This document shows, piece after piece, positions 12,211-63,425 of a stretch of DNA of 64,000 nt. The DNA is from Isoetes taiwanensis (taxonomy: Eukaryota; Streptophyta; Lycopodiopsida; Isoetales; Isoetaceae), in NCBI GenBank assembly GCA_021234155.1, contig JAJEKV010000169.1:748978-812977 (forward strand), read 5' to 3'. Numbering within the stretch: the first letter of the stretch is position 1; each line of letters starts with the position of its first letter. The notes beneath the pieces were generated by a model, which saw nothing but the letters and a program-made list of their open reading frames with translations, made no database searches and was not told where the DNA came from. The position numbers and the translations under genes were made by a program.

Positions 12211-12216
12211 GTGTAG

Positions 12217-15599: not shown

Positions 15600-16591
15600 C
15601 CCCCACAAAGGTCAGCAATCTCAAGGCCATTCTCAGGCTTTGGCACTATTACACTGATAGCCTGGTTGCGGAGGATTGCCCGCCAACATTAGTAGGGCAT
15701 GCAGATTGCATGGGAGGGTTCGTGCAATTTTTGTATCGTGATGCAAAAGTGCAAGTGGTAGGAAGAGGAAGGCCAGCCCCCATCTTGAGGATCCCGAAAT
15801 AGTTGTGCTGCAAATACGAGAATCAAGATCACAAAAACCATACCGTCCACAAACTCTTGAGGCACCGCACGATGAACGTCTTAGTTATTAAGAAACAGCC
15901 GAGCATAAGAAAGCGAGGTGAAGGCTGTCCGAGAAAGTGTGTTATAACTTAGATCAATGTTCACAATGCTCACCGCCCCGGTGGAATCACTGTCCCGAAG
16001 CTTATTCCTCTGCAGCAGCAGGTCTGTCAATTTGAAGCCGAATATCGCCGATGGAATGCTTCCAGTAAATTCATTGAAGCTCAAATCTAGAAAGGTTAAC
16101 CTGTTGAGGCCACTTACAGGTCCCAAAGAGCCTGAGAAGGAATTCCTGGCAAGAGACAGATACTCCAATGTATATGGCAATGCAGGCAGGTCACCACTTA
16201 GAGCATTCTTTTGAAGATCAAGGTGAATCAAAGGGGATGTAATCCTTGGCAGGGAACCTGATAGACTGTTATGGGCCAATGTGAGTGTGTTTAGCCTTGG
16301 AAGGCTGCCAAGCCCGGATGGAATTGATCCTGTAAGGATATTGAAGCTCAAATCTAGACCCTCTAAGTTTACTAGATTTGAGATACAAGAGGAGATTGAA
16401 CCTGTTAATTTGTTCTTGCTGATACCAATGAACTGAAGATCTCTGAGCTCACCTATTGAATCTGGAAGCTTACCTCTAACTGCTCCAGGAACAAGTGTTA
16501 ACATTTTAAGATACTTGAGCTTACCAATAGAAGGCTCAAGCTGTCCAGAGAGGCCCGGCGCTCCGGTGAGACCGCTTCCAAGGCTAAGCAT
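15600..16591 (-). pseudogene. Leucine-rich-repeat protein gene fragment (plant extracellular LRR type)
   Basis: The main open frame (15881-16591, 236 codons) holds about nine plant-type LRRs of the form LxxLxLSxNxLTGSIPxxL, such as 'LEGLDLSFNILTGSIPSGL' and 'LTFLDLSFNEFTGSIPSAI'. These repeats form the ligand-binding or scaffold region of plant LRR receptors and secreted LRR proteins. No signal peptide or N-cap Cys pair precedes them, so the N-terminal part is missing. After a stop at 15878-15880 the homology seems to continue leftwards to about 15600 in another frame, with the asymmetric tail typical of kinase-less LRR proteins. There is no kinase domain. Confidence 0.7.
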
Positions 16592-16599
16592 AGTATCAG

Positions 16600-18900
16600 C
16601 AATCTATTTATGTGGAAGGCCTAAGGCAGCATTTACGTGGAATAGCATACGCACATTAGTTCCTTAATGTCATAGGTGATTCCCTTCTAATGTTATTCTT
16701 TTATTTATTAAAAAGAGGATGAGAAGTTGACAAACTAATAGCTATGTAGCAATGATGATATCCAAAGTGGTTACTAGAATGTGGTGATGTATGGGACTGG
16801 CAATGTGGTAATCTGTTGTATAGGACTGGAGATGTAGGTCACTCTTTTGATATGTATTTTTTCTCAATTTCGTCATGTATTTTTGATACATGGTTGTAAT
16901 TCCAAAGATGATGTGTATAGTAACAAACACGTAGAAGAATACCTTATACACATGATACTTCTAAATTCATGAACATGTAATGGCAAATACAGAATCTGCT
17001 TCGTCTGTTGGAGATGTAATTCAGAAAGATTACTCTTTTGGTACGTAATTGTTTCTTAAATTTGTGAAGTATTTAGTAACACATGGTTATAATTCCAGAA
17101 TTTGACACTAGAAAATGATATGCAGAATTTTAAATGTGCAGAAGAACATTTTATACGCAGACTGTTTGGGTAACGCCACTGCTTTAGAGTGCTTTTTTGT
17201 TCGTAAGTTTTATAGCAGAGTTTTCCGGCTCCCTTGAAGACAGTGGCTCCCTGCTGTGTCTTTATTTTTCAATCTTCTATTGTGTGGCTCTCAAAATTGC
17301 TCTGCTTGGGTAGTTTCCAAAACATCGAAGCTTCTGCAATCGGATAACTTTTGATTGATTTTATGATTGATTATCCTCTTTAGCCCCTACTTGGCCTAAT
17401 TGGTTCCTAGCACTTTGATATTGTGCACAGAGTTCTTTATGAGACAATCCAACATACAAGCTCTCTAATTTGTATTCGGTGTTGATGCAAATCAGGAACT
17501 TCAAAGCCCGTATTATGGTTCCTTTTTAGTGGCGAATGTTGTATGAGTCCCATGATGTCTTTTGGAGACTTTCATCTATATTCTTTATCTCATCATTGTG
17601 CCATGATGTCTTTTCTAATACCTGCTGATATAAAGTCATGATGCACCAGATCAGTTTATGGTGCCAATTTTGAGTTGATGAAATTAGGGAAATTATACGT
17701 AAGGTAAAAAGTTATACATTATGGATTTCCTTTTCCAGAGGACAATGCAAAGAGGCCTGGATCCAGTGGGAGCTGGCAGTGTTTTGCCTCCGATAGAAGC
17801 TTTCATTGTTCAATTCACGAGCTCGGCATTGGTACAAGAAAGAAATATGAGAAAAACACACTCTTTGGCCATGTTATTGTATTAACATGTTGATATTTCT
17901 TAGTCTGGAATTCTATTCTTTTGCTGGAAGCACGTTTATGGGTGCTTCTATCTGTCTAAATGCAATAATGGGTTGCATTTGGACCAATAACTGAGCTAAT
18001 TATGATAGTGCTCTGTATTTATGGTTTCGTGATTTGCATAAGGCGTATTTTGATTATTGTTAAAAATTACGCTTAAAAGGCAACAAAAAACTAATATAAA
18101 CCAACAAGTTGCACTTTAAAAACTAGACACGTTTCATTCTCACTTGAAAATCGATTTGTTACAAATGCTAAAGCAAAGACCAACATGTACCTCACGGATT
18201 GGCCTTGCTCTTTGTTGTTTGGTCTAGGTATAAATGGTTTATATATCATGTCCAGAAAGAACAGGCTGCAGATACTGTGTACAGTTTCTTCAAACATTGT
18301 AGTAAATGTTATGTTGGCTGCCCTGATATCCCTTTCAATGCATGGTATACATTTATGGCTTAGCTAGCCCAACAAAGATTTTAGCGATTGTTAAATAATA
18401 TGCGTGCCTTATGCACCCTCCTATATTGAAACACGTATTAACAATGGCATTTCTAACACAACATCAAACTCAAACTCACATTTTATAATTTGACCAGGAA
18501 TCAAGCGTCCATCCTTTAAGTTGCATATCAGAGTACCACAATCATTCCCTCGACACTCAGATGACACCATAGCCGTGCACAATGTATCCCCAATTAGTGC
18601 ACTCCATTTTACCACATTGTGGACACTCAATTTGCAAACAAACTTATGTGTCTCAAGATGGCTCCTACTTAGTTCTACCACCTATCCCCTCTATAGTTAT
18701 AGCACCTACACACCTGCATGTCATCTATAATGTATGGTTATGCCATCTGCCCATAATTAGTAGTACATCAACTATTAAATGGTTGCCTTCCATATATTAT
18801 GGCTTCACACTTATATAGCATTCTCACTTTTCAAATTTAAACACATTAATAACCTATGTGATGTTTATTTCTAATTCATTTTACTTACTACACAAAGATC
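16600..18900. other. AT-rich non-coding stretch
   Basis: No gene recognised. A short exon-like piece near 17738-17850 (after CTTTTCCAG) reads as 'RGLDPVGAGSVLPPIEAF' but stands alone. The right part may be the body of a non-autonomous Helitron that ends at 18947. Confidence 0.4.
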
Positions 18901-43318: not shown

Positions 43319-43674
43319 TTCGTTCGTAATTCGCCCAACTGTTTATTACGTACGGGAAACTACTTTTCTTGAAGATTCCCTCGGGAATATTCCCTCGTGG
43401 AATCTTCTCGAACCGTAGTTTCCCTAGTACTTTACAACAACTCTTGGTAGCAATACAAGATACAAAAATTACAAATTTGGACTAAAAATTCTTCCAAATA
43501 CTAGAACACAAGTCGTGTATTTGTTTCTACTGTACATCAGGAGCCACATACCTTTGGTCACTTTCGAACAGCTGCCATTACAGACGACGTGGGAGACGTG
43601 GATTATAAAACAGGATTTCATGTAATAGCCAGTTAAGTTCACATTATTGGCACGAAACATAGAATATTAATTAT

Positions 43675-44646
43675 ATGAACAGTCCTATTAGGGCCAGGAA
43701 AATCATTCAGGCTCGGATGGGTATGGAAATGGATGCAAAGGTGATAGTGGCTATAGATTTTGGGACTACATATTCTGGATTTGCATATGCCCATCAGAGC
43801 AATCCCAACGAGGTTTACATTTTTGACAATTGGCCTGCTTATATTGAGGCTGGTGGTGGTAGAAGGTACTTTGCAAAACTCGGACTAGTCTTTTTTATTC
43901 TCGCTTCGGACCTTTTGGATCCGTGGAACTAAAAGCATGGGGTTGGCCTCGCATTGTTAGAGTATGTTAATGCTCTTGAAGGGGCCAGAGATGCTAGAGA
44001 TATGAGTACGAAACATCTAACAATGCGTAAATTATTTCTATCACGGGATGCAAATAATAACATGGGATATTTTCTCACCAAATTCAAGTTGTATTTGGCA
44101 CCAGTAATCCTGAGCCGTTTCTACCAACCGGGCTCACAAATGAGAAGCTAGTTGTTGATTATCTTAGAGCAATATCCGAATTTGCCATGGGAGAATTGAA
44201 GGCGTGCTATGGTGAGAATTTCAGCAAGTCGATGTGAAGTGGTGTATTACGATGTTCTTAATTTGGGATGAATGTGCCAAGCAAACCATGGAAATCGTGC
44301 GCGTAAAAAGGCTGGGATGGTGGTGGGAGCAAATTGTAGGGATGTTGACGCTTAGTTGTCATCCTTTGTCTATAACTTTAGAACCGTAAGCGACTTCCAT
44401 TTATTCACGAAGCCGGTACCGCTTTTTAAAGAAGGGGATAAATTCTTGGTAGCTGATATTGGGGGTGGAACCATTGATCTTGCACTGCATCAAAAAGTAG
44501 ACGATCGATCCCTGCAAGTTCGAGAAGTAGGCATGAGCAGTGGTTGCATGGGGGGTGGAACATTTGTGGACATGAACTTCCTCAATGTTGTTTGGAAAAA
44601 ATTAAGCTTTTTCAAGAGCTTTAGCGAATCCAATCCCAAAGACCCT
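43675..44646 (+). pseudogene. HSPA12-like (HSP70 superfamily) gene fragment
   Basis: The start reads as an HSP70-fold ATPase: phosphate-1 loop 'VAIDFGTTYSGFAY' (codons from about 43747), later 'YFLTKFKLYLAP' (about 44069), 'FAMGELKACYGENFSK' (about 44182) and phosphate-2 'VADIGGGTIDLALHQK' (about 44449). The 'GGTFVDMNFL' stretch near 44554 is typical of the HSPA12 branch rather than DnaK. The pieces lie in several frames and the middle is shortened, so it is a pseudogene. It stops abruptly after 'SFSESNPKDP', where TTTGTCACG repeats of a CACTA-like element begin. The rest of the ATPase domain is missing from the window. Confidence 0.7.
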
Positions 44647-44649
44647 TGT

Positions 44650-44992
44650 TTGTCACGGTTTTTGTCACGCAAAATACACTATATTATTATATTATTAGTA
44701 TCGTGACAAATAACTTTTCTCACTCGTGACAAACATGAAACCACTTGTCACGCGTGATAAATAAATATATTTGTCACGCGTGACAGAATGTTAGTTTGTC
44801 ACGCGTGATAAATAAATATATTTGTCACGCGTAACAAATGTTAGTTTGTCACGCCCTGATAAATAATTATATTTGTCACGCATGACAAATCTTAGTTTGT
44901 CACGCGTGACAAAACCTTTACTTTTGTCACGCCTGCCAATTTTACTTTTGTCACGCGTGACAAACTGATATTTAATAATATTTATTTTTTGA
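44650..44992 (-). repeat. Subterminal palindromic repeats, left end
   Basis: A dozen or so copies of TTTGTCACG or its complement occur, several fused into the 18-bp perfect palindrome TTTGTCACGCGTGACAAA. They alternate with TAAATAAATATA spacers. Probably transposase-binding sites. Confidence 0.85.
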
Positions 44993-46839
44993 TTTTTTTC
45001 TACATAATGTTTTTTATATTTTATTAAGCTAATTTTGATTATCCCTGATTGGTTGCAAATTGGCACAAACATAAAATGAAATTGATATACATAAAATTTA
45101 TATAAAGTACATATGCAAGTATACAAAATATAAGTGCAAAGTCTATCAATACGCACAACTGCCACTGTCTCCATCCCTGCATCATGGCGCCGAGACATAT
45201 CGTCCCCCTCTACTCCATCTCCCTGAAAAAATGGTCTGTCATCTGGGACATCGATGTCATAGTCTTCCTCTGCCAAATTCTGGGCCTCGCCTTCTTGGAG
45301 CATCCGTACAATCCTCTACAAAAAATAAGTAGTATTAGAAACTATGTTGATCAGTGGTATCTTCATTGGCTTCAAGTTAGTTACTGACCTCTCTATCGGC
45401 TTCATGAAGTGGCCATATGTTAAGTCCTGCCATGTACAACTCAAAGTCGGGCTGTGACATATATTTTCTTACATCGCACTGGTCCTGGGTGGGCGCAAAT
45501 CCGTATTGCGCATACTAAAAATAAAGTAGCAGTTAGTATGCAAAACGCGAAAGCCTCATATAAGACTATAGGCCATTACAAAAGACTCAAATACTTACGA
45601 ACTTAGCCTCGAATCCTGATTGGCCAGAACTACCAAAACGATGACCCACTGGTTGCTTTGCAATTCTCGCACTACACATGTAGAAAGTCTTAAAAGAGAG
45701 AATAAAATATTGCAAGCTAAAATAAAGTAAACTTACGATGTGGCTTCCTTCTGCTGCGCATGTCTGTCTGGTTCTGCATCATCTGCCGCGATCTCTCGAA
45801 GGGCCCACTCCCATGCTTCGTCAGGGATACGTTTTCGCTTAGAAGTTCCCTCTTCTAGATGATGCTTAACCTCCTTCTTCAGCTTAGAGCGATGGCTTCT
45901 GAAAAAAATAAGAGCATTAATACAATAAGAATTTTAATGAAGATGGTTGAAGTTTAATAGAATTGAAGACAATAACAGCACACCTATGGATCTCAGATAA
46001 CTTGTGCCGTATAAAGGACTCCGAGACATCCCCATGTATTTTCTTAACCTCACGTATCACCTGCATTTAAGTATGAGATACAAACACTTTTAATTTAGTA
46101 CAAAGAGAGTGATTGTTATAAGAAATGATGAGTAAAGCATTTCACCAGCTCAATGTGCTCAGGATCTTGCTCTTTCATTTTCTTGTGAGGTGCTTTCCAA
46201 TAAAAATGATCGTGCGCTATATAGTTTTTATAGTCCTGCGTAAGGCACTATCTCCTGGTCCAAACTTTGGCTTGCCCATCGGGCTTATCACCAAAGCGGG
46301 TACATCTGGTGAGCCCTCTAAGATCCTACAGCCTGCAGGATACTTAAATATCCCCACCTGCAAGTCAAACATCTTAGTTTATATTTTAAATTATTATGGA
46401 AGTGTGAAAAATAGTTACCTGCACTTCTTCAAAGTCTACAGGTGGTATACCCCTACCTCGCCCCCCACGTCCACGTCCACGCCCACGCCCTGCAACATAT
46501 AGCAAAATATGTATATAGCATGTTTCTAAAAGAAACAAGATTGAAATTTATACCTATAACTGACTCATGTGGAGCTGGAGCTGTAGGTGTCACTGTAGGT
46601 GGTGTAGGTGCAGGTGGAGGTACAGAAGGCAAGGGTGATCGATACGCAGTAGCAGCAGTGGCCTCCCGCTCCCGCATCCGCCGATCAAAGGTTGTATTAA
46701 GGACCCTGGCCTCATTAATAGTCTCTTGAGAATTTTGGGCCCATTCACGAAACCTTTGTGCGGGATCACCACCAGTACCATATAGGTCCTGCAATATCAC
46801 GATTGCTTGGTGCAAGGGATCATCTAAGTTATCGCCCAT
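44993..46839 (-). pseudogene. Eight-exon transposon gene (TNPA-like accessory protein), one frameshift
   Basis: Exons: 46839-46554, 46489-46419, 46357-46146, 46060-45984, 45898-45737, 45671-45599, 45514-45389, and from 45315. All borders are GT-AG and all phases agree, except for a 1-nt shift in exon 3 after 'FGPGDSALR'. Features in order: a Pro/Thr-rich end to exon 1, a Gly-Arg run (GRGRGRGRGGRGRG) spanning exon 2, 'VGIFKYPAGCRILEGSP' with 'FGPGD' in exon 3, and a basic then acidic helix 'KRKRIPDEAWEWALREI' in exon 5. Exon 7 has 'YAQYGFAPTQDQCDV'. Exon 8 is acidic and runs open toward the repeats without a clear natural stop. By position and style it resembles the second (DNA-binding) gene of En/Spm elements; that is inference. 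Confidence 0.55.
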
Positions 46840-46999
46840 CTGAATGTGAAACCAAATATTAGAAATAAAGCAAGCACAACTGAGACAAAAAATTACAACC
46901 TAGTTGCCACATCTAGTGCAATCTGCAACCCAAGTTCAGCTACAACATTGAAAAAGTGCACATGCATCAAATTTCCCCTTGAGTTCAAATTGTAGGATG

Positions 47000-49900
47000 C
47001 TCACTTGATATTTGATTAAAATATGAATGTTGGGTCGCTTTAGAGGACATGTGATATCAAGAATCAAATTCACGAAATATCAACCAAAAATTTAACCTCA
47101 TAATGACTATTACCTTGTTGAAAATGTTCTAAAACTCTATGCTACAGTAAAAATAAGATCATTTTCATTGCTACAGTGATTTCTACATGTGACGTATTAT
47201 CAAATTACTAACCTCTTGGAATATGAGTTCGGCTCTCCAAATTGACACTCCACTTGCCTTTCCCTCTTTACCAGCTTTCTCTAATTTACTGTTTTACTAG
47301 AGTTGAATGCGTAATCTCCTTAACCTGCAATTATATTTTAAAAAGAATCATCACAATTGGTTTAGGGAGTCCCTTATACAAAGCAAACTTTGAGAAAGAA
47401 ATCCAAATTTTGCTGTAGCAATGACATTCGTGCATAAGTGTGCCAATGGTTACTCAATTTCCACCTAAACACAGCCATCTACTGGCAACAACCTTAATTT
47501 ATCACAATAGGTATAAAGTATCTAGCCACATCCATGAAAACACTCTGCACATGCAGGGTAACTTAAAAAACCTAAAGTCGCCTAAAAATACTAGCAATGG
47601 TGTTAATGCATATGAAATTAAAAATACAAGCACAACTAAGAGCTATAAAATAGAATGAGTCAACAGTGATGAACAGTAAATCCACTTAGCAAAGTAATCA
47701 TGTATGCACAACACTTAAGCAGGATAGGCATCGACAAGCAATGCACACAACCAAGGCCAACAAAAAGCATAAGAATCCAACCATACTCCCATGAAAACTA
47801 CAAAGATCAACATATTCATGTAAATCCACAATATGCATGCAACATCACTCTAAATTGGAATTACACGTGAATGAGAATAAATATAGATAAAAGCAACAAA
47901 ATCGCCACTTGAATCCATGGCTATAACATAAAAAGAAAACATCTTAGCCAACGCACCACAAATTTTAAAAATTTTACAATTGAAAAAAATTGTAGCGAAG
48001 TGAAGGACAATAAACCCAAAATAAATATCAAGTTGCTAAGGAGTTTTCAAAGGCAAATCGTGGCCCTACGCAATATACCACTACACTTGCTATACCCTAG
48101 CCAAGTATATAGAGTTAAAACATTTGGAAATGGATGATGAGTCAGACCCAAATAAAAAGGGAAGACAAATCTAGGGAAAATAGCATTGTGTAGGGTAAAG
48201 AGGAAGTAGAGAGGCAAGGATAAAGTTCAAATAAAAAGCAACTAAGATTGCAATGTTTGAGGCTCAAAAATATCACTTTTTGATACCTCCACAACAACTT
48301 TTTGCACAATTCCTTAAATATGATAAAAAAGGGGAGAAACATACCTAAACAAAAAGGGCAAATCGCTAGTACTCAAAGGAAAAGAAAGGGTTGCAAGTAT
48401 GATGGAAAAGGGAGGGAAATATTTCCTAAAATGAACAGTAGAGGTAACCTATGAAATATCAGGTATCATGCACGATGTCATGGGGAAAACCATTGGTGAA
48501 CGTCGAGAAGGGAGCAAGACAAACATGAGAAAGGTAGAGGTATAGGATAATTCCCGGGCTTAAGCTTTGGCATCAAGGGCAAAGGGGCAAAACTCAATTT
48601 TGGATGCATCTAGAGAATGCCCCGACTTGTTAGAAAAGTAAATGCATGAGCCAGTTAGATGACCAATGCATTTAACCAGATAACATTTTTATGTTTAATA
48701 ATAACAGTGTCGGGTTTTATTGACATAGGTAACCAGTTCCATTGACATTGCCTCAATGCATCCTTGAAACGTTAGGAATGTTGAGAGATGATAGTTGTGG
48801 CAGAATTTAGCCCTTCAGAAGCCTTGTTTGAGGAATTATCTGAATAGAATTAATTATCTCAGCATTGTTTTGAAAACAATTGGTCGTGTTTGAGTTGAAT
48901 GGGCCTTTGCTTAGATGCAACTGTATACTCGGGTGAGTACTTGGATGCTAACCTCTGGAGAAGCTATCATAGGCAAGAGAACGACACTGCAAGAGAAAGA
49001 GAAAGGTCGGATCTGAGCAATGCTCTTAACTAAGTGCCAGAATCTTAGAAACTTCTTTCAATCAAGAGGATAGAACCTATAGACAGTTAAGTACGAGACA
49101 AAGGAAGTCAGAAGCAAAAGGTTTGAATGAGAAACAGAGAAAGACGGTGAAGAAAAACGACTATAAACCCAAGAAACCTCATATAAGATGGTAAGGACCA
49201 AGGATCCGTCTGATTGCCAAACTGCTACAGGGCTAGAAACCTAGCCTAAAAAGCTAGAGAGAAGTTTAACAAGATTTGATCCCACACAACAATAAAAGAA
49301 CAACAACAGAGAAAACTATTTGAGTGGTTCTTATGCATTTGTGAATGGCATTGAAGTGGTGTCTATTCCGCATCGTGGCTATCTTTGATGATGCCATTTC
49401 TTTAGGGTCTAGTTCTATTCAAAAGCTTGGAATGGATGGAATTGCCTTGCAAACAATGTACGGGGTGAATGTTGGGGCGGGTTACGTCCAATCCGGTTAA
49501 TGATTCCAGACGAGATGAGAACATGGAAACCGATGACGCTTATCTTGTAGCCCGGACTACACACTTACTATCTTCTCCTGAGTCTTTATTAAACTGAAAC
49601 CTCACTCTAACCTCTCGCCATGATGATTTGGACCTAGATACTAGAAATATATTTCACTTCATTTTTATCTTGAAAATAATGCAAAGATCTTTGCTCAAAG
49701 ATGTGCGGGGAACCGGGCACTTACCTACTTTATCTTGATTTGCGATATTAAAACATGGAAGGAAGATCATCTTTGGAACCAAAAAGAAATCAAGACTACT
49801 TTTTCAAAGGAATCACAACCTTACATTGGCATCTAATTTTTCGTTCGAGTTCCATTTATGTATGGGCAACCAAAAGTGCAAGAAATATATTTATTAAGCA

Positions 49901-51240
49901 ACCCGGAAGAGCGCGGTGCAGCGTAACATAAAAAGCCTTCAATACAAGACATTCTGACATCCGAACATTGAAGTCCGGGGTAGCAACCTCGATACTTTAG
50001 TTTTCCTGTTATATATTTGTTCTAGAACATTTAACCTTGTATAAGGAAATACAAAATCGCACCAATGCGGTTTTTGAACGAGGGACGAAAATATCTATAC
50101 CACTTGAGGTACATGTTTCTTTAATGTATAGAATTTGAACTAAACCATGCTCTATTTTCTTATACTCACGGGAACATATTTCGACAATAGATTGAGTGCA
50201 TCGATAGATTTCACGAGGCCTTGCTATTGAGCATATTGCTCGTGATAGGTGCAAAATATCAAATAAAACGGGATCAACTCTCTATAGAAACGCATTAGTT
50301 TGATAATATTGCGGGTTGAGAATCTCATTACTCTACGCCAAAGACCGATTACGTCGGTGTAGGTGTAGAAAATGTCACAGGGCAAGATTTGGAGCTCCTA
50401 CAAGACTTGTCTGGCAAGTCTGAAAAACCCATGTCGTCATTGACAGCACGGTATTCTGGTCTGGGAACTTGCAGAACTTTCATTTGATGAAATGCATGCT
50501 GGTCTCAAAATAAAGAGACTTGTTGTAAACACAGAAAGACTATGAATCTGAAGGATGTGGTCCTTTTTCATACTTGCAGTCCTAAACATTTTATCTTGAA
50601 AATAATGCAACACTGCTCAAATATGTGTAGGGAACCAGGCACTTACCTCTCTATACTGATTTGCAGATATTAAAACATGGAAGGAAGATCATGCTGGTAC
50701 CTTGTTGCAGAGTCCAATATCATGACATGAAATATAATAGATGCAGTCAATTCTTAACAATTACCATAAGTTGTTAAGGTAAATATGAAAGGTTTTCAGC
50801 GTAAAGTTTTTCAGTGTATAAATATGCAATGATGTGCTGGTTTAAGCTCTAGCCACCAGGTTCCCCAAAAAGAAACTACCAGTCATCTAGAATCTCTAAT
50901 GTAGATAATGGATTTCAAATAGACGCTCAAATGTACTCACGTTCTGCCATCAAGATCTATTCAGAATCTTAGGAAGACTGTGGGATCTGCTGCGAAGTGG
51001 GAATGTTCCTTTGACTCAACCTGCAATTATAGTTTCATGTAAAATTATCACAAATAGAATTCATGCAAACTTTGCTTCCAAAATCAAATTCTCAAAACCT
51101 TTCAATCCAGGACACAAAAACCAGTTTTCTATTCTGTTTACCTGTTTTCTGATTCTAGATTTGGCGCCCGAGAATGCAAGAACAGCAAGAAAGCATTTCC
51201 CATTTCCCGCTTCCCACCGAATTTTGCTCAAATTTTTTCG
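47000..51240. other. Interior of the CACTA-like element, no gene seen
   Basis: AT-rich. No TNP2 motifs on either strand. A ~105-bp direct repeat is described separately. The region 48.5-49.5 kb is purine-rich on the plus strand. Confidence 0.4.
49661..50697 (+). repeat. ~105-bp direct repeat flanking a 0.8-kb segment
   Basis: TTTTATCTTGAAAATAATGC...GGGAACC(G/A)GGCACTTACC...ATATTAAAACATGGAAGGAA occurs at about 49661-49771 and 50590-50695. The left copy differs by about a dozen bases. The enclosed 0.8 kb has no coding content. It could be an insertion that duplicated its flank, or a tandem duplication of a ~0.93-kb unit with loss of similarity. Confidence 0.75.
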
Positions 51241-51255
51241 CCGAATTGTGCTCAA

Positions 51256-51345
51256 AATTTGTCACGAACGTAAATTTTTTTGTCCTACGTGACAAAAACT
51301 AGTTTGTCACGAATGCACCATTTTCCACGCGACATAAATTTGTTT
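51256..51345 (-). repeat. Subterminal repeats, right end
   Basis: TTTGTCACGAACG, CTACGTGACAAAAA, TTTGTCACGAATG and CCACGCGACA lie within 90 bp, matching the motif at 44.65-44.99 kb. They mark the other end of the same element. Confidence 0.7.
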
Positions 51346-52620
51346 GTTATTTCAATGGTCCATATAGTTATAGGCTACAATAGAAATAGAGTTCTCCTTT
51401 GGCAAAAAATAATTTACTGCCACATGGCAAGTCCATACAATGCAAAATGGAAGTCGGCTAACCCCATTCCACATGACTGACCGTTGGAGCCGTTTTCAAG
51501 GTTTCTTTAGGGATGTCATTGCCGCATTGCTCTTTCTGCAAAGTTTTCGCACTGTTTTTCGAGCAAAGTTCTTCCTTAGAGTTGTCGCCACCACATTGTT
51601 CTTTGAGTCCTTGATAGAGTTTTCTTCACCATTTCTTTCCCACGATCAGGAAGTCAATGGCTCAATAGCAATTTTTCTGTAGTTGCATTGCCTACATAGC
51701 TTCACAACAATTTATGCAATAGATGAGGATGCAATTTATCGTGTCCTCTAGTATATGCTTGGTTGCCATAGATGATCCTCAGCTTAGAAATGCTTCCAAA
51801 CTTCCAATAATATTGATTCCAATGTACAATATATTTTGCTTCCTGTATATGGATGGCCGAAACGGAACGTTTGCTTTCACACTTTTGAAATTTTGAAGAA
51901 TGTGCCAATGGATTCTCTTATCCTTAAGACATACATCATCATATTCAACTTCATGCTTCAAACTTCCGTATGTCCACAAGGTGAAAGTCTAAAAGAGACC
52001 TTTCCTAGAGTGAACAATTGTTGATCAATGAAGTTCCAAAAGAGATTCTCACTCTTAACAATGTTATTATAGCCATATTCATGAAGATGTCTGAAGCTAT
52101 TCTATGAAACCCTAGCCTAGACGATAGAAAAGACTTCAAGGACTAACAAGAAACTATATATGTTGGGCCCAATTATGTATCTATTATCATGATGTTAAAT
52201 GTACAAAAAGATGGAGATCACAAATTCAATCTTGCATCCATAGGCACAACACGTTTCTAGTCATGGGCCACAATTACAAGGTAGAATGAGATAAATAACA
52301 ATGAAGCCTTATATGTAAATTGTATATTTTTTTATTTGCCGAGACGTATCCAAGCATTGCCAAATTTTGTTGAAGATCTTAAATTACGTATTATCAGGCC
52401 TACCTTGAAGGGTGGGCTTTTCTTGCATTTTTAAGCGTGCCATGTCATAGTTTTTTGCTATTAGTTTTTTGCCCATATTGACCTCAGATCTAATTTCCCA
52501 CATCTAGCAATAGTGAAAATTACAAAATGGATGATAAATATTCTATTTTCATTTCCCTAACCTAAGGCAATGAAATGAAAGCACAGAAGAATGTGACACT
52601 AGCTTTTTTTTTCCCCCTTT
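51346..52620. other. Non-coding stretch before the satellite
   Basis: No gene recognised. If the HSPA12-like gene once continued past the transposon, I cannot find it here. Confidence 0.45.
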
Positions 52621-52623
52621 TTT

Positions 52624-52642
52624 GGGGGGGGGGGGGGGGGGG
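52624..52642 (+). repeat. 19-bp G tract at the satellite edge
   Basis: Directly preceded by a C5T6-9 run and followed within about 10 bp by the first satellite sequence. Such a run is uncommon in plant DNA and is also a spot for sequencing error. Confidence 0.85.
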
Positions 52643-52649
52643 TTACCAT

Positions 52650-55600
52650 ACATTCTGAGCTTCCTAGAGTGGTCGAACTGGAGGAACACCTTATTTCTTG
52701 GTCGTGCCCCTATGTGGGGAAGGGGAAAATTTAAGGGTTCGCACATCCGAGCATTGGATTTCCAACTTTTATTTTCGGAGATGTTTCTCGGGACATGAAC
52801 TCTTATTTGAATGATGGGATTAGCGAACGACGCGATTTTGGTGCCTTGATACGTAAACCCTACTAAATCTGTAGGGTTTAGGTCTTTACAGCCTTCCCTA
52901 CATCGTCGAGAGCTTACGTGCACAGTTTCCTCAAGGGTCCGAAAAGAGGCCCCAAGAGTGAGAACAAAGAACCCCTTCCTAGGCACTGGTTCCAAACTTG
53001 CACCCTTGCGATGGCTCGTAACAAGCTAGATATTGTGCAACCGGGCATGCTAGAAGGCAGGACATGACAGTTTCGCTCCGTCCTTACATCTAGACGGCGA
53101 GAGTCACCCTTGAACACATGTTTGAGGAGTAGACAATCGATCAAACGCCTGGCTTGCCTTGTACATCCTATGCTTAGATTAGCGCACTAGGCAAGGAATG
53201 CATTGAATGAGAGGTCCACTATAGCTGCTCATATCGAGTAGAGATTAGTTCTATTGGTCATGGAAGTTGGTCCCTAGAGTGACTTCGATGCTTTGAACTC
53301 ATGTGCGAAGTCAAAATAAGGTTCTGAGCTCGATAGACGTGGCTGAATTGGGGGATCACGCCATTTTCTCGTCGTTTTCCTACGTCGAGAAGGGGAAAAT
53401 TTGGGGGTTGGCACATCCGGGTTGTAGGTGTTCATTTTTTCTTTTAAGAGATGTTTCATGAGACATGAACAACCATTGGAACGGTGGGATTAGCAGATGA
53501 AGCTGTTTTGGTGCCCCGATACTTAAACCCTACTAAATTTGTAGGGTTTAGGTTTTGGAAGCCTTCCCTACCTCTAAAGTGGTCGAGAGCTTGCAAGCAT
53601 AGTCCCTAAAAGATTTGATGTTTTTGACTCATGCACAAAGTCAAAACCACATTCTGAGAGTGGTCGAACTGGAGGAACACCCCATTTCTTGGTCGTGCCC
53701 ATGTGTGGGAAAGAGGAAAATTTGGGGGTTGGCACATCCGTGTGATAGATGTTCATTTTTTCCTTTGAGAGATGTTTCATGAGACATGACCTACCATTTG
53801 AACGGTGGGATTAGCAGATGAAGCTGTTTTGGTGCCCCGATACTTAAACCCTACTAAATTTGTAGGGTTTAGGTTTTGGAAGCCTTTCCTACTTCTGAAG
53901 TGGGTCGAGAGCTTGCATCCATAGGCCTGTAAGTAAATTGGATGTTTTTGACTCATGCACAAAGTTAAAAGCACATTCTGAGCTTGCTAGAGTGGTCGAA
54001 CTGGAGGAACACCCCATTTCTTGGTCGTGCCCCTACGTGGGAAAGGGGGAAATTTAGGGGTTCGCACATCCGAGCATTGGATTTCCAACTTTTATTTTCG
54101 GAGATGTTTCTCGGGACATTATTTGAACGATGGGATTAGCAAACGACGCGATTTTGTTGCCTCGATATGTAAACCCTACTAAATCTGTAGGGTTTAGGTC
54201 TTGACAGCCTTCCCTACATCGAAAGTAGTCGAGAGCTTACGTGCACAGTTTCCTCAAGGGTCCGAAAAGAGGCCCCAAGAGTGAGAACAAAGAACCCCTT
54301 CCTAGGCACTGGTTCCAAACTTGCACCCTTGCGATGGCTCGTAACAAGCTAGATATTGTGCAACCGGGCATGCTAGAAGGCATGACATGACAGTTTGGCT
54401 CCGTCCTTGCATCTAGACGGCGAGAGTCACCCTTGAACACATGTTTGAGGAGTAGACAATCGATCAAACGCCTGGCTTGCCTTGTACATCCTATGCTTAG
54501 ATTAGCGCACTAGGCAAGGAATGCATTGAATGAGAGGTCCACTAGCTGCGCATATCGAGTAGAGATTAGTTCTATTGGTCATGGAAGTTGGTCCCTAGAG
54601 TGACTTCGATGCTTTGAACTCATGTGCGAAGTCAAAATAAGGTTCTCGAGGCTTCGATAGAGTGGCTGAATTGGGGATCACGCCATTTTCTCGCCGTTTT
54701 CCTCGTCGAGAAGGGGAAAATTGGGGGTTGGCACATCCGGGTTGTAGGTGTTCATTTTTTCTTTTAAAGAGATGTTTCATGGGACATGAACAACCATTGG
54801 AACAGTGGGATTAGCGAGATGAAGCTGTTTTGGTGCCCGATACTTAAACCCTACTAAATTTGTAGGGTTTAGGTTTTGGAAGCCTTCCCTACCTCTAAAG
54901 TGGTCGAGAGCTTGCAAGCATAGTCCCTAAAAGATTTGATGTTTTTGACTCATGCACAAAGTCAAAACCACATTCTGAGAGTGGTCAAACTGGAGGAACA
55001 CCCCATTTCTTGGTCGTGCCCATGTGTGGGAAAGAGGAAAATTTGGGGGTTGGCACATCCGTGTGATAGATGTTCATTTTTTCCTTTGAGAGATGTTTCA
55101 TGAGACATGACCTACCATTTGAACGGTGGGATTAGCAGATGAAGCTGTTTTGGTACCCCGATACTTAAACCCTACTAAATTTGTAGGGTTTAGGTTTTGG
55201 AAGCCTTTCCTACTTCTGAAGTGGGTCGAGAGCTTGCATCCATAGGCCTGTAAGTAAATTGGATGTTTTTGACTCATGCACAAAGTTAAAAGCACATTCT
55301 GAGCTTGCTAGAGTGGTCGAACTGGAGGAACACCCCATTTCTTGGTCGTGCCCCTCACGCGGGAAAGGGGAAATTTAGGGGTTCGCACATCCGAGCATTG
55401 GATTTCCAACTTTTATTTTCGGAGATGTTTCTCGGGACATTATTTGAACGATGGGATTAGCAAACGACGCGATTTCGTTGCCTCGATATGTAAACCCTAC
55501 TAAATCTGTAGGGTTTAGGTCTTGACAGCCTTCCCTACATCGAAAGTGAGTAGTCGAGAGCTTACGTGCCGCGGTTTCCTCAAGGGTCTGAAAAAAGAGG

Positions 55601-58600
55601 CCCCAAGAGTGAGAACAAAGAACCCCTTCCTAGGCAACCGGTTCCAAACTTGCACCCTTGCGATGGCTCGTAACAAGCTAGATATTGTGCAACCGGGCAT
55701 GCTAGAAGGCATGACATGACAGTTTGGCTCCGTTCTTGCATCTAGACGGCGAGAGTCACCCTTGAACACATGTTTGAGGAGTAGACAATCGATCAAACGC
55801 CTGGCTTGCCTTGTACATCCTATGCTTAGATTAGCGCACTAGGCAAGGAATGCATTGAATGAGAGGTCCACTAGCTGCGCATATCGAGTAGAGATTAGTT
55901 CTATTGGTCATGGAAGTTGGTCCCTAGAGTAACTTCGATGCTTTGAACTCATGTGCGAAGTCAAAATAAGGTTCTGAGCTCGATAGAGTGGCTGAATTGG
56001 GGGATCACGCCATTTTCTCGTCGTTTTCCTACGTCGAGAAGGGGAAAATTTGGGGGTTGGCACATCCGGGTTGTAGGTGTTCATTTTTTCTTTTAAGAGA
56101 TGTTTCATGGGACATGAGCAACCATTGGAACAGTGGGATTAGCAGATGAAGCTGTTTTGGTGCCCGGATACTTAAACCCTACTAAATTTGTAGGGTTTAG
56201 GTTTTGGAAGCCTTCCCTGCTTTCGAAGTGGTCAAGAGCTTGCATGCATAGTCCCTAAAGTAAATTGGATGTTTTTGACTCATGCACAAAGTTAAAAGCA
56301 CATTCTGCGCTTGCTAGAGTGGTCGAATTGGAGGAACACCCCATTTCTTGGTCGTGCCCCTGCGTGGGAAAAAGGAAAATTTGGGGATTGGCATATCCGT
56401 GTGATAGATGTTCATTTTTTCTTTTGAGAGACGTTTCATGAGACATGACCTACCATTTGAACGGTGAGATTAGCAGATGAAGCTGTTTTGGTGCCCCGAT
56501 ACTTAAACCCTACTAAATTCGTAGTGTTTAGGTTTTGGAAGACTTTCCTACTTCTGAAGTGGGTCGAGAGCTTGCATGCATAGGCCCTAAAGTAAATTGG
56601 ATGTTTTTTACTCATGCACAAAGTTAAAAGCACATTCTGAGCTTGCTAGAGTGGTCTAACTGGAGGAACACCCCATTTCTTGGTCGTGCCCCTGCGTGGG
56701 AAAGGGGGAAATTTAGGGGTTCGCACATCCGAGCATTGGATTTCCAACTTTTATTTTCGGAGATGTTTCTCGGGACATGAACTCTTATTTGAACGATGGG
56801 ATTAGCAAACGATGCGATTTTGTTGCCTCGATATGTAAACCCTACTAAATCTGTAGGGTTTAGGTCTTGACAGCCTTCCCTACATCGAAAGTAGTCGAGA
56901 GCTTACGTGCACAGTTTCCTCAAGGGTCCGAAAAGAGGCCCCAAGAGTGAGAACAAAGAACCCCTTCCTAGGCACTGGTTCCAAACTTGCACCCTTGCGA
57001 TGGCTCGTAACAAGCTAGATATTGTGCAACCGGGCATGCTAGAAGGCATGACATCACAGTTTGGCTCCGTCCTTGCATCTAGACGGCGAGAGTCACCCTT
57101 GAACACATGTTTGAGGAGTAGACAATCGATCAAACGCCTGGCTTGCCTTGTACATCCTATGCTTAGATTAGCGCACTAGGCAAGGAATGCATTGAATGAG
57201 AGGTCCACTAAAGCTGCTCATATCGAGTAGAGATTAGTTCTATTGGTCATGGAAGTTGGTCCCTAGAGTGACTTCGATGCTTTGAACTCATGTGCGAAGT
57301 CAAAATAAGGTTCTGAGCTCGATAGAGTGGCTGAATTGGGGGATCACGCCATTTTCTCGTCGTTTTCCTACGTCGAGAAGGGGAAAATTTGGGGGTTGGC
57401 ACATCCGGGTTGTAGGTGTACATTTTTTCTTTTAAGAGATATTTCATGGGACATGAACAACCATTGGAACGGTGGGATTAGCAGATGAAGCTGTTTTGGT
57501 GCCCCGATACTTAAACCCTACTAAATTTGTAGGGTTTAGGTTTTGGAAGCCTTCCCTGCTTTCGAAGTGGTCAAGAGCTTGCATGCATAGTCCCTAAAGT
57601 AAATTGGATGTTTTTGACTCATGCACAAAGTTAAAAGCACATTCTGAGCTTGCTAGAGTGGTCGAATTGGAGGAACACCCCATTTCTTGGTCGTGCCCCT
57701 GCGTTGGAAAGAGGAAAATTTGGGGGTTGGCATATCCGTGCAATAGGTGTTCATTTTTTCTTTTGAGAGACGTTTCATGAGACATGACCTACCATTTGAA
57801 CGGTGGGATTAGCAGATGAAGCTGTTTTGGTGCCCCGATACTTAAACCCTACTAAATTTGTAGGGTTTAGGTTTTGGAAGCCTTTCCTACTTCTGAAGTG
57901 GGTCGAGAGCTTGCATCCATAGGCCTGTAAGTAAATTGGATGTTTTTGACTCATGCACAAAGTTAAAAGCACATTCTGAGCTTGCTAGAGTGGTCGAACT
58001 GGAGGAACACCCCATTTCTTGGTCGTGCCCCTACGTGGGAAAGGGGGAAATTTAGGGGTTCGCACATCCGAGCATTGGATTTCCAACTTTTATTTTCGGA
58101 GATGTTTCTCGGGACATGAACTCTTATTTGAACGATGGGATTAGCAAACGACGCGATTTTGTTGCCTCGATATGTAAACCCTACTAAATCTGTAGGGTTT
58201 AGGTCTTGACAGCCTTCCCTACATCGAAAGTAGTCGAGAGCTTACGTGCACAGTTTCCTCAAGGGTCCGAAAAGAGGCCCCAAGAGTGAGAACAAAGAAC
58301 CCCTTCCTAGGCACTGGTTCCAAACTTGCACCCTTGTGATGGCTCGTAACAAGCTAGATATTGTGCAACCGGGCATGTTAGAAGGCATGACATGACAGTT
58401 TGGCTCCGTCCTTGCATTTAGACGGCGAGAGTCACCCTTGAACACATGTTTGAGGAGTAGACAATCGATCAAACGCCTGGCTTGCCTTGTACATCCTATG
58501 CTTAGATTAGCGCACTAGGCAAGGAATGCATTGAATGAGAGGTCCACTAGGCTGCGCATATCGAGTAGAGATTAGTTCTATTGGTCATGGAAGTTGGTCC

Positions 58601-59738
58601 CTAGAGTAACTTCGATGCTTTGAACTCATGTGCGAAGTCAAAATAAGGTTCTGAGCTCGATAGAGTGGCTGAATTGGGGATCACGCCATTTTCTCGCCGT
58701 TTTCCCTACGAGAGAAGGGGAAATTTTGGGGGTTGGCACATCCGGGTTGTAGGTGTTCATTTTTTCTTTTAAGAGATGTTTCATGAGACATGAGCAACCA
58801 TTTGAACAGTGGGATTAGCGGATGAAAGTTGTTTTGGTGCCGGATACTTAAACCCTACTAAATTTGTAGGGTTTAGGTTTTGGAAGCCTTCCCTTTTCAA
58901 GTGGTCAAGACTTGCATGCATAGTCCCTAAAGTAAATTGGATGTTTTTGACTCATGCACAAAGTTAAAAGCACATTCTGAGCTTGCTAGAGTGGTCGAAT
59001 TGGAGGAACACCCCATTTCTTGGTCGTGCCCCTGCGTGGGAAAAAGGAAAATTTGGGGATTGGCATATCCGTGTGATAGATGTTCATTTTTTCTTTTGAG
59101 AGACGTTTCATGAGACATGACCTACCATTTGAACGGTGGGATTAGCAGATGAAGCTGTTTTGGTGCCCCGATACTTAAACCCTACTAAATTTATAGGGTT
59201 TAGGTTTTGGAAGACTTTCATACTTCTGAAGTGGGTCGAGAGCTTGCATGCATAGGCCCTAAAGTAAATTGGATGTTTTTTACTCATGCACAAAGTTAAA
59301 AGCACATTCTGAGCTTGCTAGAGTGGTCGAACTGGAGGAACACCCCATTTCTTGGTCGTGCCCCTGCGTGGGAAAGGGGGAAATTTAGGGGTTCGCACAT
59401 CCGAGCATTGGATTTCCAACTTTTATTTTCGGAGATGTTTCTCGGGACATGAACTCTTATTTGAACGATGGGATTAGCAAACGATGCGATTTGTTGCCTC
59501 GATATGTAAACCCTACTAAATCTGTAGGGTTTAGGTCTTGACAGCCTTCCCTACATCGAAAGTAGTCGAGAGCTTACGTGCACAGTTTCCTCAAGGGTCC
59601 GAAAAGAGGCCCCAAGAGTGAGAACAAAGAACCCCTTCCTAGGCACTTGTTCCAAACTTGCACCCTTGCGATGGCTCGTAACATGCTAGATATTGTGCAA
59701 CCGGGCATGCTAGAAGGCATGACATGACAGTTTGGCTC
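52650..59738. repeat. Tandem satellite array with ~1.33-kb higher-order unit
   Basis: Five complete periods, flanked by partial units, with lengths 1316, 1321, 1345, 1339 and 1332 bp measured between equivalent points. Each unit has three related subunits: A (holding CATCCGAGCATTGG), B (CATCCGGGTTGTAGG) and C (CATCCGTGTGATAG). A carries an additional ~345-bp block (with GATGGCTCGTAACAAGCTAG) that lacks the palindrome. Subunit spacing is A-B 670-682, B-C 321-331, C-A 325-332 bp. Copies are very similar, so amplification is recent. The repeated 65- and 76-codon open frames are by-products. The array ends inside subunit A at the CACTA junction. Confidence 0.95.
52855..59532. promoter_or_regulatory. 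Sixteen inverted telo-box palindromes, one per satellite subunit
   Basis: Each subunit has AAACCCTAC and GTAGGGTTT as inverted arms around a 7-nt spacer (TAAATTT or TAAATCT), usually followed by AGG. Starts: 52855, 53525, 53846, 54171, 54846, 55167, 55492, 56174, 56505, 56837, 57513, 57844, 58176, 58850, 59177, 59508. The copies at 56505 and 59177 have a changed base or two. AAACCCTA is the plant telo-box, bound by telomere-repeat-binding MYB proteins and linked to Polycomb recruitment. Whether these copies bind anything is inference. Confidence 0.85.
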
Positions 59739-59739
59739 C

Positions 59740-62700
59740 TGCAAATATATCCATTGTACAATGAAACCTGCAAAATCGAGCAAAGATTGACATAATGTAA
59801 ACAAGTACAAGCTTCAAAGAAATATAACTTACCCAACTTGAAGGTCCAAAGGCAATTTCTCTTTCCTCATCAGTTACAGAGTTGGGGTCCTCTCTCTTTG
59901 ACGCTAAGACGGTCTTTAATATCCAATCTTCGGGCATAGTATCTGGTAGTGTGCATAGCTCAGGAGGGTATGGTGCTCGTGATTGTTGTCGCCATTGTCG
60001 TCGTTCTAGTTCCCTGGCTTGCTTTAGCTCATCATACTTTCGAACCCATTTCTCCATGCATTGCTCATTATGCACTATGTAAAATTTGATTGCATTAAGC
60101 TCATCGTGCTTTAGTTTGTAATTGCGCCCTTTGCTATGTAGCTTATCCAAGCTTTGTTCATGTTGTAGGAACGACACTGCTTCCTTATCAACTTTCTTAA
60201 GGTACGTTGATATGGCAAACTTGCAATCCTCGGCAACCCATCCTTCCGGACATGCTCCCTTCAAAGCTTAGCAAATTGCCTCACAAAGTCCTTAAGGACT
60301 TTCATGAACCGCTCAAGAAAAAACATCCAACGATAGGAGACGGGCCCTGCCCAATCAATGTCCTCAACTAGATGTACGAGCAAATGTACCTATTACAAAT
60401 AAATTTGTGAGAAACACTTGCGATAATGATCGACATATAAAAACTTTGTTACATTTTGAAACAAGCAAAGGTGCACTCAGATATCAAAGAAACTTGTTGG
60501 GAACACTTTCTCAAATAGGCAAAGGACTTCAATGGATAGCTCCTTCATTTGTTGAAGGTCTTTTTCATCAATCTCCTTTAATGATATCCATCCAGTAATG
60601 TAGAGATATCCTTCAATATACTTGTATCTATAATCACATCTACATAATCAAAGTTTGTAAATGAGCTTACCTACATAGCTTGGCCAATTTGAAAATAGGC
60701 TCACAAACTTTAGAAAGGCGATCCGTCGTAGAACCATAGGTAAAATCTCCTACAAGACAAGGACAAAGAAAAACAATAATTAAAAAAAACAGAGGTCAAT
60801 AAACTATATGACATATATACTCATATTATAGGAACTTACTCAAGCATTAACATTTTGTGGTAGTCATGGGACTTCAATCCGGTTAACTTATTGCCCTTCT
60901 TTGCCCAACACCTTTTAAAAGAGGAGCAGTACCCGGTTGGCATCTTCACTTCTTTAATAGACTCTTGCACAATATCCAAGTTCTTTTTAGTCAAAACCCA
61001 TGGCGGACGAGATTTTGGATTCTTTAGACTTGCATTACGACACGGGCTGTAATAATAAACAATCTTGTCGAGAAGCAACACTATCTTTCTCCCCGATGAT
61101 ATCTTTGCCATAGAGAATCTGAAATATTTTTCATGATATGCATTGGATCCAATAAAGCCGTGTACTTCAACTCCCAGCCAGTATGGTAACTCAAATAGTA
61201 TAGATAATCGTTTCATGCCATTTGGAGGAGTGACAATGATGTCATCAGGGACCTTCATAAACATCGCTTGCATGTTCACCTCTTTCCATGCCTTGTCTTC
61301 TCTTACGTTCCCATTGATCGAGCCAATCTCTTGTGGTCATGCACTTTGGAGTGTCTATTTTTGCTAGGGCTCCCCAAGTAATGGATGATCCATTGGTAAA
61401 AATTTTCATGGCCCTCGTATACATGTTTCTTCAATGAACTGTGAGTATCTTGATGTGATTTGGTCACCACAACGTCACATAAGCATATTGACCTTTAGTT
61501 TGTAGACCTATAGATATAAAAACAATTTTTATTATTGATGTAATTTTCATATAAAAAAAAGCCCTCAAAATAAATAAAAAGAACAAGAAGATACCGATTT
61601 ACATATCTTTGAGACCGGGGATAGTCATGCATTGTCCACATTAATATAGCCTTCAATGTAAATCTTTGCTCCCTAGATATTCTCTTAGAGATATCTACCA
61701 TGGGAACACCACTCCATAGAGTTTTCAAGTCGTCAATTAAGGGTGATAGATATACATCAAAATTTTTAGGTTGTGAAGGGCCTGCAATATCAAGACTCGG
61801 CATGATTAAAGACTCCCACTACATTTTATATAAAAAAAATATATTCCTAATAGAACTAAATGAATTGTACAAACCTGGAATTATCATGCTCAAGATGATA
61901 TGACCCCGTTTGATGGACTCATGTGGAGGGATGTTATAGTTTACAAGCATGACTGGCCATGTGGACCACGATGCTGTCCGTTGCGAAAAAGGATTGAAAC
62001 CATCTGTTGCGAGACCAAAGTGAATATGTCTTGGTTCATTTTGAAATTCGGGCTTATTTATAAATCTCCATGCATCCGAATCAGCGGGAATGCGCATAAC
62101 TCCATTAGAGCTACAGTTATTTACATGCCAACCCATCAAGGCAGCAATCTCCTTTGTCCTAAACATATGTTTAAGTCTAGGAATTATAGGAAAATACCGC
62201 AATACCTTGCATGGAATGGTCGAGCCTTGGACATCTTTACGGTACCTCGACTCGTTACATTTTGGACAATGAACCATATCCTTGGTGTCCTTATAATATA
62301 AGGTACACTCGTTTGGACATACATGGATGTTCTCGTACTCAAAACCAAGCGTCTTTATGAGCTTACGTGCTTCAGAACGACTAGAAGGAACCTTGTTTTC
62401 AGGAGGCAATATTTTGCAAATAAGTCTGCATACACAAATATATGATGATTAAGCCAACAAAGATAAACAATAAAATTTCATATGTTCGAGAATTAAGAGT
62501 TAGGAAGGGAAGGAAGAACCTTAATATTGCATCAACTGCAACATTTGATATCTTATATTGCCCTTGCAAGTTGAGGAGGCATAGGTTAAATGTCAATCTC
62601 GATATTTTGCAGCCCTCGTATAATTTTGTTTTGGCATCCTGGATTATCTGATCATCAAGGTATTTAGCTGGATCTACCTCAATGACTTCATCAACCTCAG

Positions 62701-62908
62701 AGGCGTGCATATCTTGTTTGTCAATGTCATTATCAATGCCTTGCATGAGAAACTCAAATTGAGCATGCTCGTACAACAAATCTTGAGTCGCCTCATCATA
62801 AGCATGACCAGTGTTTTGTTCCACATTCCCATTAACTATAGGATTTTCTCGTGCAATCTTTTCCATATCATCACGGTGGAACTTTGATATACGAGGAGCA
62901 TCTGGTAC
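59740..62908 (-). pseudogene. TNP2-like CACTA transposase (Transposase_21 with DUF4218 region), decayed
   Basis: Minus-strand exons follow the TNP2 plan. From 62908: an acidic N-terminal region ('LYEGCKISRLTFNLCLLNLQ'). 62427-61876: the conserved core with 'CPNECTLYYKD', 'CPKCNESRYR' and 'GLATDGFNPF'. 61803-61600: 'FDVYLSPLIDDLKTLW' and 'LMWTMHDYPR'. 61279-60836: 'LFELPYWL' and 'MPTGYCSSFKRC' then 'GLKSHDYHKMLM', the entry to DUF4218. 60390-60260: 'WAGPVSYRWMFFLERFM'. 60264-59830: the DUF4218 tail 'PEGWVAEDCKFAISTYL' and a linker to the missing C-terminal domain. Breaks include stops or shifts near 61450, 60700 and 60265. TNP2 proteins cut and join CACTA ends. Confidence 0.75.
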
Positions 62909-62989
62909 CTATAAAGCAGAATTTCATTAAAGTTGGAAATTTCGTGATTCCAATTTCTCGTGAAATCAGTTTCTTCCCTGTTTTATCAC

Positions 62990-63425
62990 ACATTTATGGC
63001 TAGATATGGCACTATTTGCTTAAAAAGAAACCAGTTATCATGCAAAAACCGCTACATTTAATATAAAACAGCGCGGTTTTAGTTGTCAGGAAGAGAACTA
63101 TGGCGCCATTTACTTGGAAAGTATGAGGAAAAGCGGCCCGAGAAACACAAAAGCAAATATTAAATTGCCAAAAAGCGCCCAGCAAGCAAACAAAATGGCG
63201 CGACGCTCCTTTAGCTTAGAAATAACCACAAAGCAAATAAGCGCAAACGCGATATTTGCTTTAACGTGAAAGGAAGCAAATGGTGTGCGCTATTTGCTTG
63301 AACGTGAAAGCAAGCAAATAGTGCGACGCCGCTTATTTAAGAGCGAGCAAATAGTGCAGGCGCGCTATTTGCGTGAACGTGAAGACCAAGCAAATAGTGC
63401 TCTCGCGCCATTTTGCTATAGATAA
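62990..63425 (-). repeat. Subterminal repeats of the TNP2 element (5' side)
   Basis: At least ten variants of GCAAATAGTGCGC / GCGC(T)ATTTGCTT are packed into about 430 bp on both strands, together with GCGCCATTT variants. On the minus strand they read CACTATTTGC, containing CACTA itself. The outermost copy ends at about 63399, a candidate terminus. Confidence 0.75.

Follow-up and report, generated by a model that had tools for sequence, protein, structure and literature searches.

Satellite arrays within CACTA elements are already known. In quinoa (Chenopodium quinoa), the 16.5-kb CACTA element Jozin, which has a Transposase_21 domain, carries 5.5 kb of a 171-bp satellite after its coding part, and this satellite family is described as dispersed along the chromosomes (PMC8978399). 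Here, we analyzed a stretch of 64,000 nucleotides of Isoetes taiwanensis (assembly GCA_021234155.1, contig JAJEKV010000169.1, positions 748,978 to 812,977), hereafter the window, from whose first letter window positions are counted. At 52650-59739 (plus strand), the window contains a tandem array of ~330-bp subunits, arranged into higher-order units 1.32-1.34 kb long and bearing 16 inverted pairs of telo-boxes. This array forms the block of tandem repeats inside a dispersed, ~18-kb CACTA (En/Spm-type) DNA transposon family. As in Jozin, several kilobases of tandem repeats are located within the element, toward its 3' end and after the coding part, but the unit found here is about twice as long, has a higher-order structure and includes a constrained telo-box pair. 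The terms "telomer" and "palindrom" are absent from the main text of the Jozin paper (PMC8978399). Our literature search, with most subscription journals outside its coverage, recognized no report on telo-box arrays in transposons; it is the telo-box content of the array, and not its presence in a CACTA element, for which no report was found.

Plant telo-boxes are located mostly in 5' flanks and 5' untranslated regions (UTRs), and those of ribosome-related genes are accompanied by site II or tef boxes (PMC3022908). The array has the same 8-bp core, AAACCCTA, but here the boxes form inverted pairs with a near-fixed gap, repeated in tandem inside a transposon, and they lack site II and tef partners. 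Both of these motifs are the usual companions of telo-boxes in promoters. With the telo-box targets of TRB proteins and Polycomb repressive complex 2 (PRC2), reportedly described by Zhou et al. in 2018, the array shares the motif and a plausible reader protein. To our knowledge, no transposon array is found among those targets.

The array contains 16 copies of AAACCCTAC, starting from 52855 to 59508, each followed after 7 bp (start offset, 16 bp) by a partner arm of the GTAGGGTTT type. A pattern search located 14 of the 16 as letter-perfect palindromes, at 52855-52879, 53525-53549, 53846-53870, 54171-54195, 54846-54870, 55167-55191, 55492-55516, 56174-56198, 56837-56861, 57513-57537, 57844-57868, 58176-58200, 58850-58874, and 59508-59532. 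The ninth (56505-56529) and fifteenth (59177-59201) pairs have one mismatch each, in the right arm. In the former it breaks the box, while in the latter it falls outside the box core and TAGGGTTT remains intact, leaving 31 intact cores of 32 and 15 intact pairs. Consecutive palindromes are separated by 321-332 bp, or by 670-682 bp across a longer block, and the higher-order period is 1,321-1,339 bp. A first-pass annotation, made from the letters of the window, had described sixteen palindromes over 7 kb at this spacing, about doubled across the block, and had recognized telo-box cores in their arms. Both descriptions hold. When the whole genome (1.66 Gb, 1,110 contigs) was searched, the exact-arm pattern had 547 matches versus 2 for a reversed-pattern control, and the core pair AAACCCTA-N9-TAGGGTTT had 948 versus 0, so the pattern is not a product of chance. 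Within the window, where the 16 subunits represent few types and are mutually dependent, the palindrome arms are 99.3% conserved versus 84.4% elsewhere in the subunit, and the palindrome ranks fifth among 295 segments of 25 columns, tied at the top value.

The right border of the array, at 59739, abuts the 3' end of a CACTA transposase gene encoded on the minus strand, a context that the first-pass annotation missed. DNA searches of the genome with the array unit, the transposase gene, and the left side of the element had many loci in common; counts from these searches are lower bounds, with 27 of 622, 40 of 925, and 40 of 76 candidates scored, respectively (likewise 40 of 205 for the SET-domain frame and 40 of 1268 for a second tandem family, both discussed below). 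The comparison of the window with two other copies, C952 and C1053, delineated a single element composed of left subterminal repeats, a left segment, the array, the transposase gene, and right subterminal repeats. Copy C952 (22094426-22112733, i.e., 18,308 bp) has TGG on both sides, the 3-bp target duplication of CACTA elements, and its termini (left, CACTAGTAGAG; right, CACTACAAGGC) both begin with CACTA beside the border of the shared sequence. The assignment of the termini rests on this copy, given that its two ends share only 10 of their first 18 letters and that C1053 yielded no left end. The assignment of the family derives from these termini and from the protein domains, Transposase_21 (tnp2) having been identified in the window and C952, and DUF4218 and DUF4216 in C952. 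From the right end inward, the minus strand of C952 contains an outermost frame with a weak match to Transpos_assoc (E = 0.049), the SET-domain frame, Transposase_21 in three frames (E = 8.5e-29, 6.4e-18, and 1.6e-8), DUF4218 (E = 2.4e-19), DUF4216 (E = 5.7e-6, below the Pfam cut-off), an acidic tail and, finally, the array. Both ends of the element (44745-44964 in the window and the right ends of C952 and C1053) carry subterminal repeats whose building block is the 18-bp palindrome TTTGTCACGCGTGACAAA; these repeats are probably the binding sites of the transposase.

The genome search for the unit proposed in the first-pass annotation provided 141 matches, which we grouped into 25 arrays. In 19 of them, the 20 kb that follow on the 3' side hold transposase or SET sequence in the same orientation as the array, while five had no such match and one was rearranged (the count is based on 53 of the 56 transposase matches, the other three matching only an inserted repeat, and on all 40 SET matches). 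One of the 19, at C1049, also has a SET match on the 5' side, probably belonging to a neighboring copy. Because of this conserved position we rejected a free-standing satellite, and the array is not the independent satellite that had been proposed.

The conservation of the boxes was evaluated with a whole-subunit profile applied to loci that homology to the unit had identified, so that the palindrome played no part in their choice. The 458 profile matches were reduced to 286 non-redundant subunits; once 106 incomplete ones had been set aside, 180 that spanned the block remained, of which 146 were chosen by homology and 34 came from loci found through the palindrome. Locus L054, also in the palindrome listing, was counted among the former since its array matched the array unit. 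In the 146 homology-chosen subunits, departures from the consensus amounted to 34 of 2265 (1.5%) in the box cores versus 2997 of 24386 (12.3%) in the flanks. Both boxes were intact in 107 of them, versus 26.2 expected from flank identity, and, where flank identity was <0.85 (n = 55), in 36 versus 1.02 expected. The 34 palindrome-found subunits, biased by that choice, gave 0.7% in the core versus 18.5% in the flanks and 29 intact versus 1.4 expected; 11 such loci that were compared have 67-77% identity to the window unit. Of the 151 pairs fetched, which were drawn from homology-found and palindrome-found loci alike, include those of L046 (a member of another family) and may contain some edge duplicates, 140 have a gap of 9 bp between the boxes, and the letters within the gap vary among loci. 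The most diverged arrays of the genome have spacings of 505 bp and 732 bp. The box cores and the gap are, then, more constrained than the remainder of the subunit is on average, and the sequence part of the outcome that the first-pass annotation had named as its refutation, palindromes no better conserved than their surroundings, did not materialize. Besides the core AAACCCTA, adjoining blocks are constrained too.

The persistence of the boxes while much of the surrounding sequence decays suggests that they are bound by a protein. In Arabidopsis, a single telo-box suffices for the in vitro binding of TRBs, which contact PRC2 and PEAT (PMC10167121) and associate with JMJ14 (PMC10049986), while moss TRBs form homo- and heterodimers (PMC12616469). 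We consider that there is about an even chance that host Myb proteins of the TRB/SMH type, which bind telo-boxes, use the pair as a bivalent site and the array as a docking platform, thereby steering the chromatin over the transposon. The two cores of each subunit, facing each other across 9 bp, would provide the bivalent site, and their tandem multiplication would convert it into the platform. More speculatively, the docked proteins might bring PRC2, PEAT, or JMJ14, the complexes described for the TRBs of Arabidopsis, and these might modulate or reduce the transcription of the element, and its accessibility, close to where the transposase gene ends. The recurrence of the inward pair in repeats resembling long terminal repeats (LTRs) and in the second tandem family, described below, was counted in favor of docking by a host protein.

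Several observations weigh against this proposal. The linker-histone domain (H1/H5) had 19 matches in the genome, but the adjoining Myb domain was unreadable and a TRB gene is unconfirmed. The complete copy C952 retains only 4 intact pairs (8 boxes) versus 15 (31 boxes) in the window copy, which indicates a wide variation in site number from copy to copy. The stretch to the right of the palindrome (AGGTTTTGG..AGCCTTCCC) equals it in conservation: in three data cuts of the homology-chosen subunits, the palindrome ranked 7th, 8th, and 9th of 225 segments, and the four best segments shown in each cut overlap it. Just six subunits are <85% mutually identical, and there positions 9-14, 16, and 17 are as fixed as the boxes. 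With so few diverged subunits, and with the letters between the boxes invariant too except for position 15, the claim of a constraint confined to the 8-bp boxes is weak; in these six subunits, 16 random flank columns match the conservation of the cores with a probability of 0.00035 and the box pair ranks third of 201 segments. Furthermore, a gap interrupts a box in 15 of the 146 subunits, and in array L050 (C320) three of the four pairs no longer show the fixed gap. To these points should be added the absence of promoter partners from the array and the amplified nature of the inward pairs, both treated below.

A lack of function should also be considered, i.e., an old satellite unit caught in the transposon, whose core persists through homogenization or recombination hot-spot effects. 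The capture of satellites by CACTA elements has a precedent (PMC8978399), the arrays are homogenized within loci, and further blocks of the unit are conserved as well; homogenization, however, fails to explain why the boxes are unchanged between arrays that diverge by 15-33% in their flanks, and we regard this explanation as quite improbable. We attribute a similarly small probability to the palindrome acting as a nucleic-acid hairpin, be it by folding at a 3' end, by giving rise to small RNAs, or by forming a cruciform in the DNA. The near-constant length of the spacer is what a loop could show, and in both of the subunits that were folded (out of 16) the RNA folded better than shuffled sequences, with z values of -4.3 and -3.5 on the plus strand and of -2.6 and -2.5 on the strand that encodes the transposase frames; the stronger fold is, however, that of the antisense strand. 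Moreover, compensation was detected in only 1 of the 24 variants (of 175) at facing positions 9/17, just outside the boxes, and in none at the other eleven facing pairs, among which the eight box pairs, with only 2 to 8 variants each, are little informative. A known RNA family was rejected for the array, as the whole window gave no Rfam match at gathering scores. An RNA hairpin appears less likely, and the near absence of compensatory changes is the reason to prefer a bound protein, for which the host Myb proteins are our favored candidates.

The protein could also be one of the transposon itself, the pairs being sites for a TNPA-like second protein or for the transposase, in excision or self-regulation. 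The telo-box pairs belong to the element and are conserved with it, and there might be a second gene in its left segment, where three minus-strand open frames within 45153-46899 (45153-45315, 45736-45933, and 46456-46899) may be exons of a gene that is TNPA-like by position only; against Pfam, the frames at 45.2-46.9 kb had no match to a transposon protein. Nevertheless, the sites expected for the transposase, the subterminal TTTGTCACGCGTGACAAA repeats, are a different motif, no telo-box was found in the left-end stretch of the window copy (44686-44964), and the LTR-like repeats also hold an inward pair, with other gaps. We judge such a role unlikely, and binding by host proteins remains our preferred explanation. 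The window copy is defective, as indicated by its unrecognizable left terminus, the loss of ~1 kb between the array and the gene, and the presence of another repeat from 62914. Its left end, with the TTTGTCACGCGTGACAAA repeats, extends from 44643, where the common sequence begins, to 44964. The left internal segment (46900-52649) has no clear coding content by eye and shares pieces with C952, C1053, C1049, and others. To the right of the array, the remnant of a TNPD-type transposase gene (59740-62913, minus strand) lacks the ~1 kb that C952 has between both and includes a frame with Transposase_21 (PF02992, E = 9.2e-27) at 61819-62448 (minus strand). The repeat that interrupts the element (62914-63400) has three matches elsewhere (C1106 and C1025), and none of the transposase copies among the matches listed extends into it beyond a few bases.

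Inward telo-box pairs are not restricted to this family. With gaps of 0-39 bp they had 6,086 matches in the genome (946 + 948 + 4192; reversed controls, 18, 0, and 82), and outward pairs with gaps of 0-38 bp had 213 (102 + 111; reversed controls, 11 and 89). By eye, the ~50 places listed for the inward search with 4192 matches comprise ~10 sequence types, while outward pairs look more varied. The inward excess reflects the amplification of repeat families (arrays like that of the window, LTR-like repeats, and the second tandem family) rather than a series of separate acquisitions. In the second tandem family, four telo-boxes in nested inverted pairs (AAACCCTATCAAACCCTAGGGTTTGCTAGGGTTT) recur every 299-317 bp in dispersed short arrays (C35:754958, C64:55699, C161:81008, and others). 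A probable relative, L046:801-834, is similar to the window unit only along 38 bp at the palindrome. In the LTR-like repeats (L068-L077), an inward pair is located close after a TATA-like box (a TATTTAG-like box before the pair in L072 and L076). Their probable LTR nature is deduced from five pairs of copies that are 9.8-11.7 kb apart and 91-96% alike, with ends of the type TGTGACG...CGTCACA. In addition, L078:622 has a telo-box pair in the middle of a large inverted repeat, a fold-back element by eye, and interstitial repeats of the TTTAGGG type are present in the genome.

The position of the pair in these LTR-like repeats, 3 bp after CTATATAAGGG (L070 and L074) or 10 bp after CTATAAAAGGG (L068), is where a 5' leader would begin, and the concentration of telo-boxes in plant 5' UTRs (PMC3022908) points in the same direction. 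The pairs in the array could, on this view, be activator or start-site elements driving an internal, possibly bidirectional, promoter. Yet neither strand of the array (52650-59739) contains a site II or tef box, which also counts against docking, and the array has no TATAWA; the sole TATA-like match on the other strand is the mutated arm at 59190. Besides, the array is located downstream of the transposase frames. A core promoter within the array, of the kind usually associated with telo-boxes, seems less likely, and we would give the whole promoter explanation a low probability. Returning to docking by host proteins, it is conceivable, though we hold it with considerable doubt, that unrelated repeat classes (CACTA, LTR-type, and the second tandem family) each took up inward pairs as docking sites for the telomere-repeat-binding proteins of the host. 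The CACTA family would have multiplied these sites into arrays and, with a SET gene of its own, would bring along both a chromatin platform and a chromatin enzyme.

The SET-domain open reading frame (ORF) lies between the first frame of the right end and Transposase_21 (L039:9166-9969, minus strand) and is unreadable in the window copy. In C952 it has 268 codons and matches PF00856 with an E value of 2.2e-5, above the Pfam cut-off, while searches against PDB and NCBIfam gave nothing relevant. At least 40 matches to it were recorded across the genome, 12 of which were fetched for the comparison. Among 13 copies, the pooled pN/pS ratio was 0.51 and the median dN/dS ratio was 0.50, with values for the first copy against the others listed that range, without a significance test, from 0.18 to 1.03. 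Five of the 13 have neither a stop nor an inserted base (L039, L055, L056, L057, and L061), although L057 and L061 have gapped codons, so that three are fully intact. The ORF is probably under purifying selection, which suggests that the transposon needed this protein during its spread. Genes for TET/JBP dioxygenases are carried by fungal DNA transposons (PMC12730594). Both cases combine a DNA transposon with the gene of an epigenetic enzyme, but here the transposon is a CACTA family of a plant and the gene an ORF with a SET domain. No report on such a family with a SET gene was recognized in the literature search, under the same coverage as above.

Other features of the window include, directly to the left of the element (43663-44706, plus strand), three frames that look Hsp70-like by eye, with no Pfam match at an E value of 0.01. 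Farther away, there are a NIF-type phosphatase domain at 12203-12820 (plus strand; E = 1.4e-10) and leucine-rich repeats at 15881-16603 (minus strand).

If proteins of the TRB type bind these arrays, transposons would use, or be policed by, the code through which plants recruit telomere proteins and Polycomb. In that case, a comparison of the many natural arrays scattered through the genome, in which some boxes are intact and others broken, would show directly whether the pairs are sufficient by themselves to nucleate H3K27me3. The SET ORF of this CACTA family would, for its part, be a further case of an epigenetic enzyme borne by a transposon.

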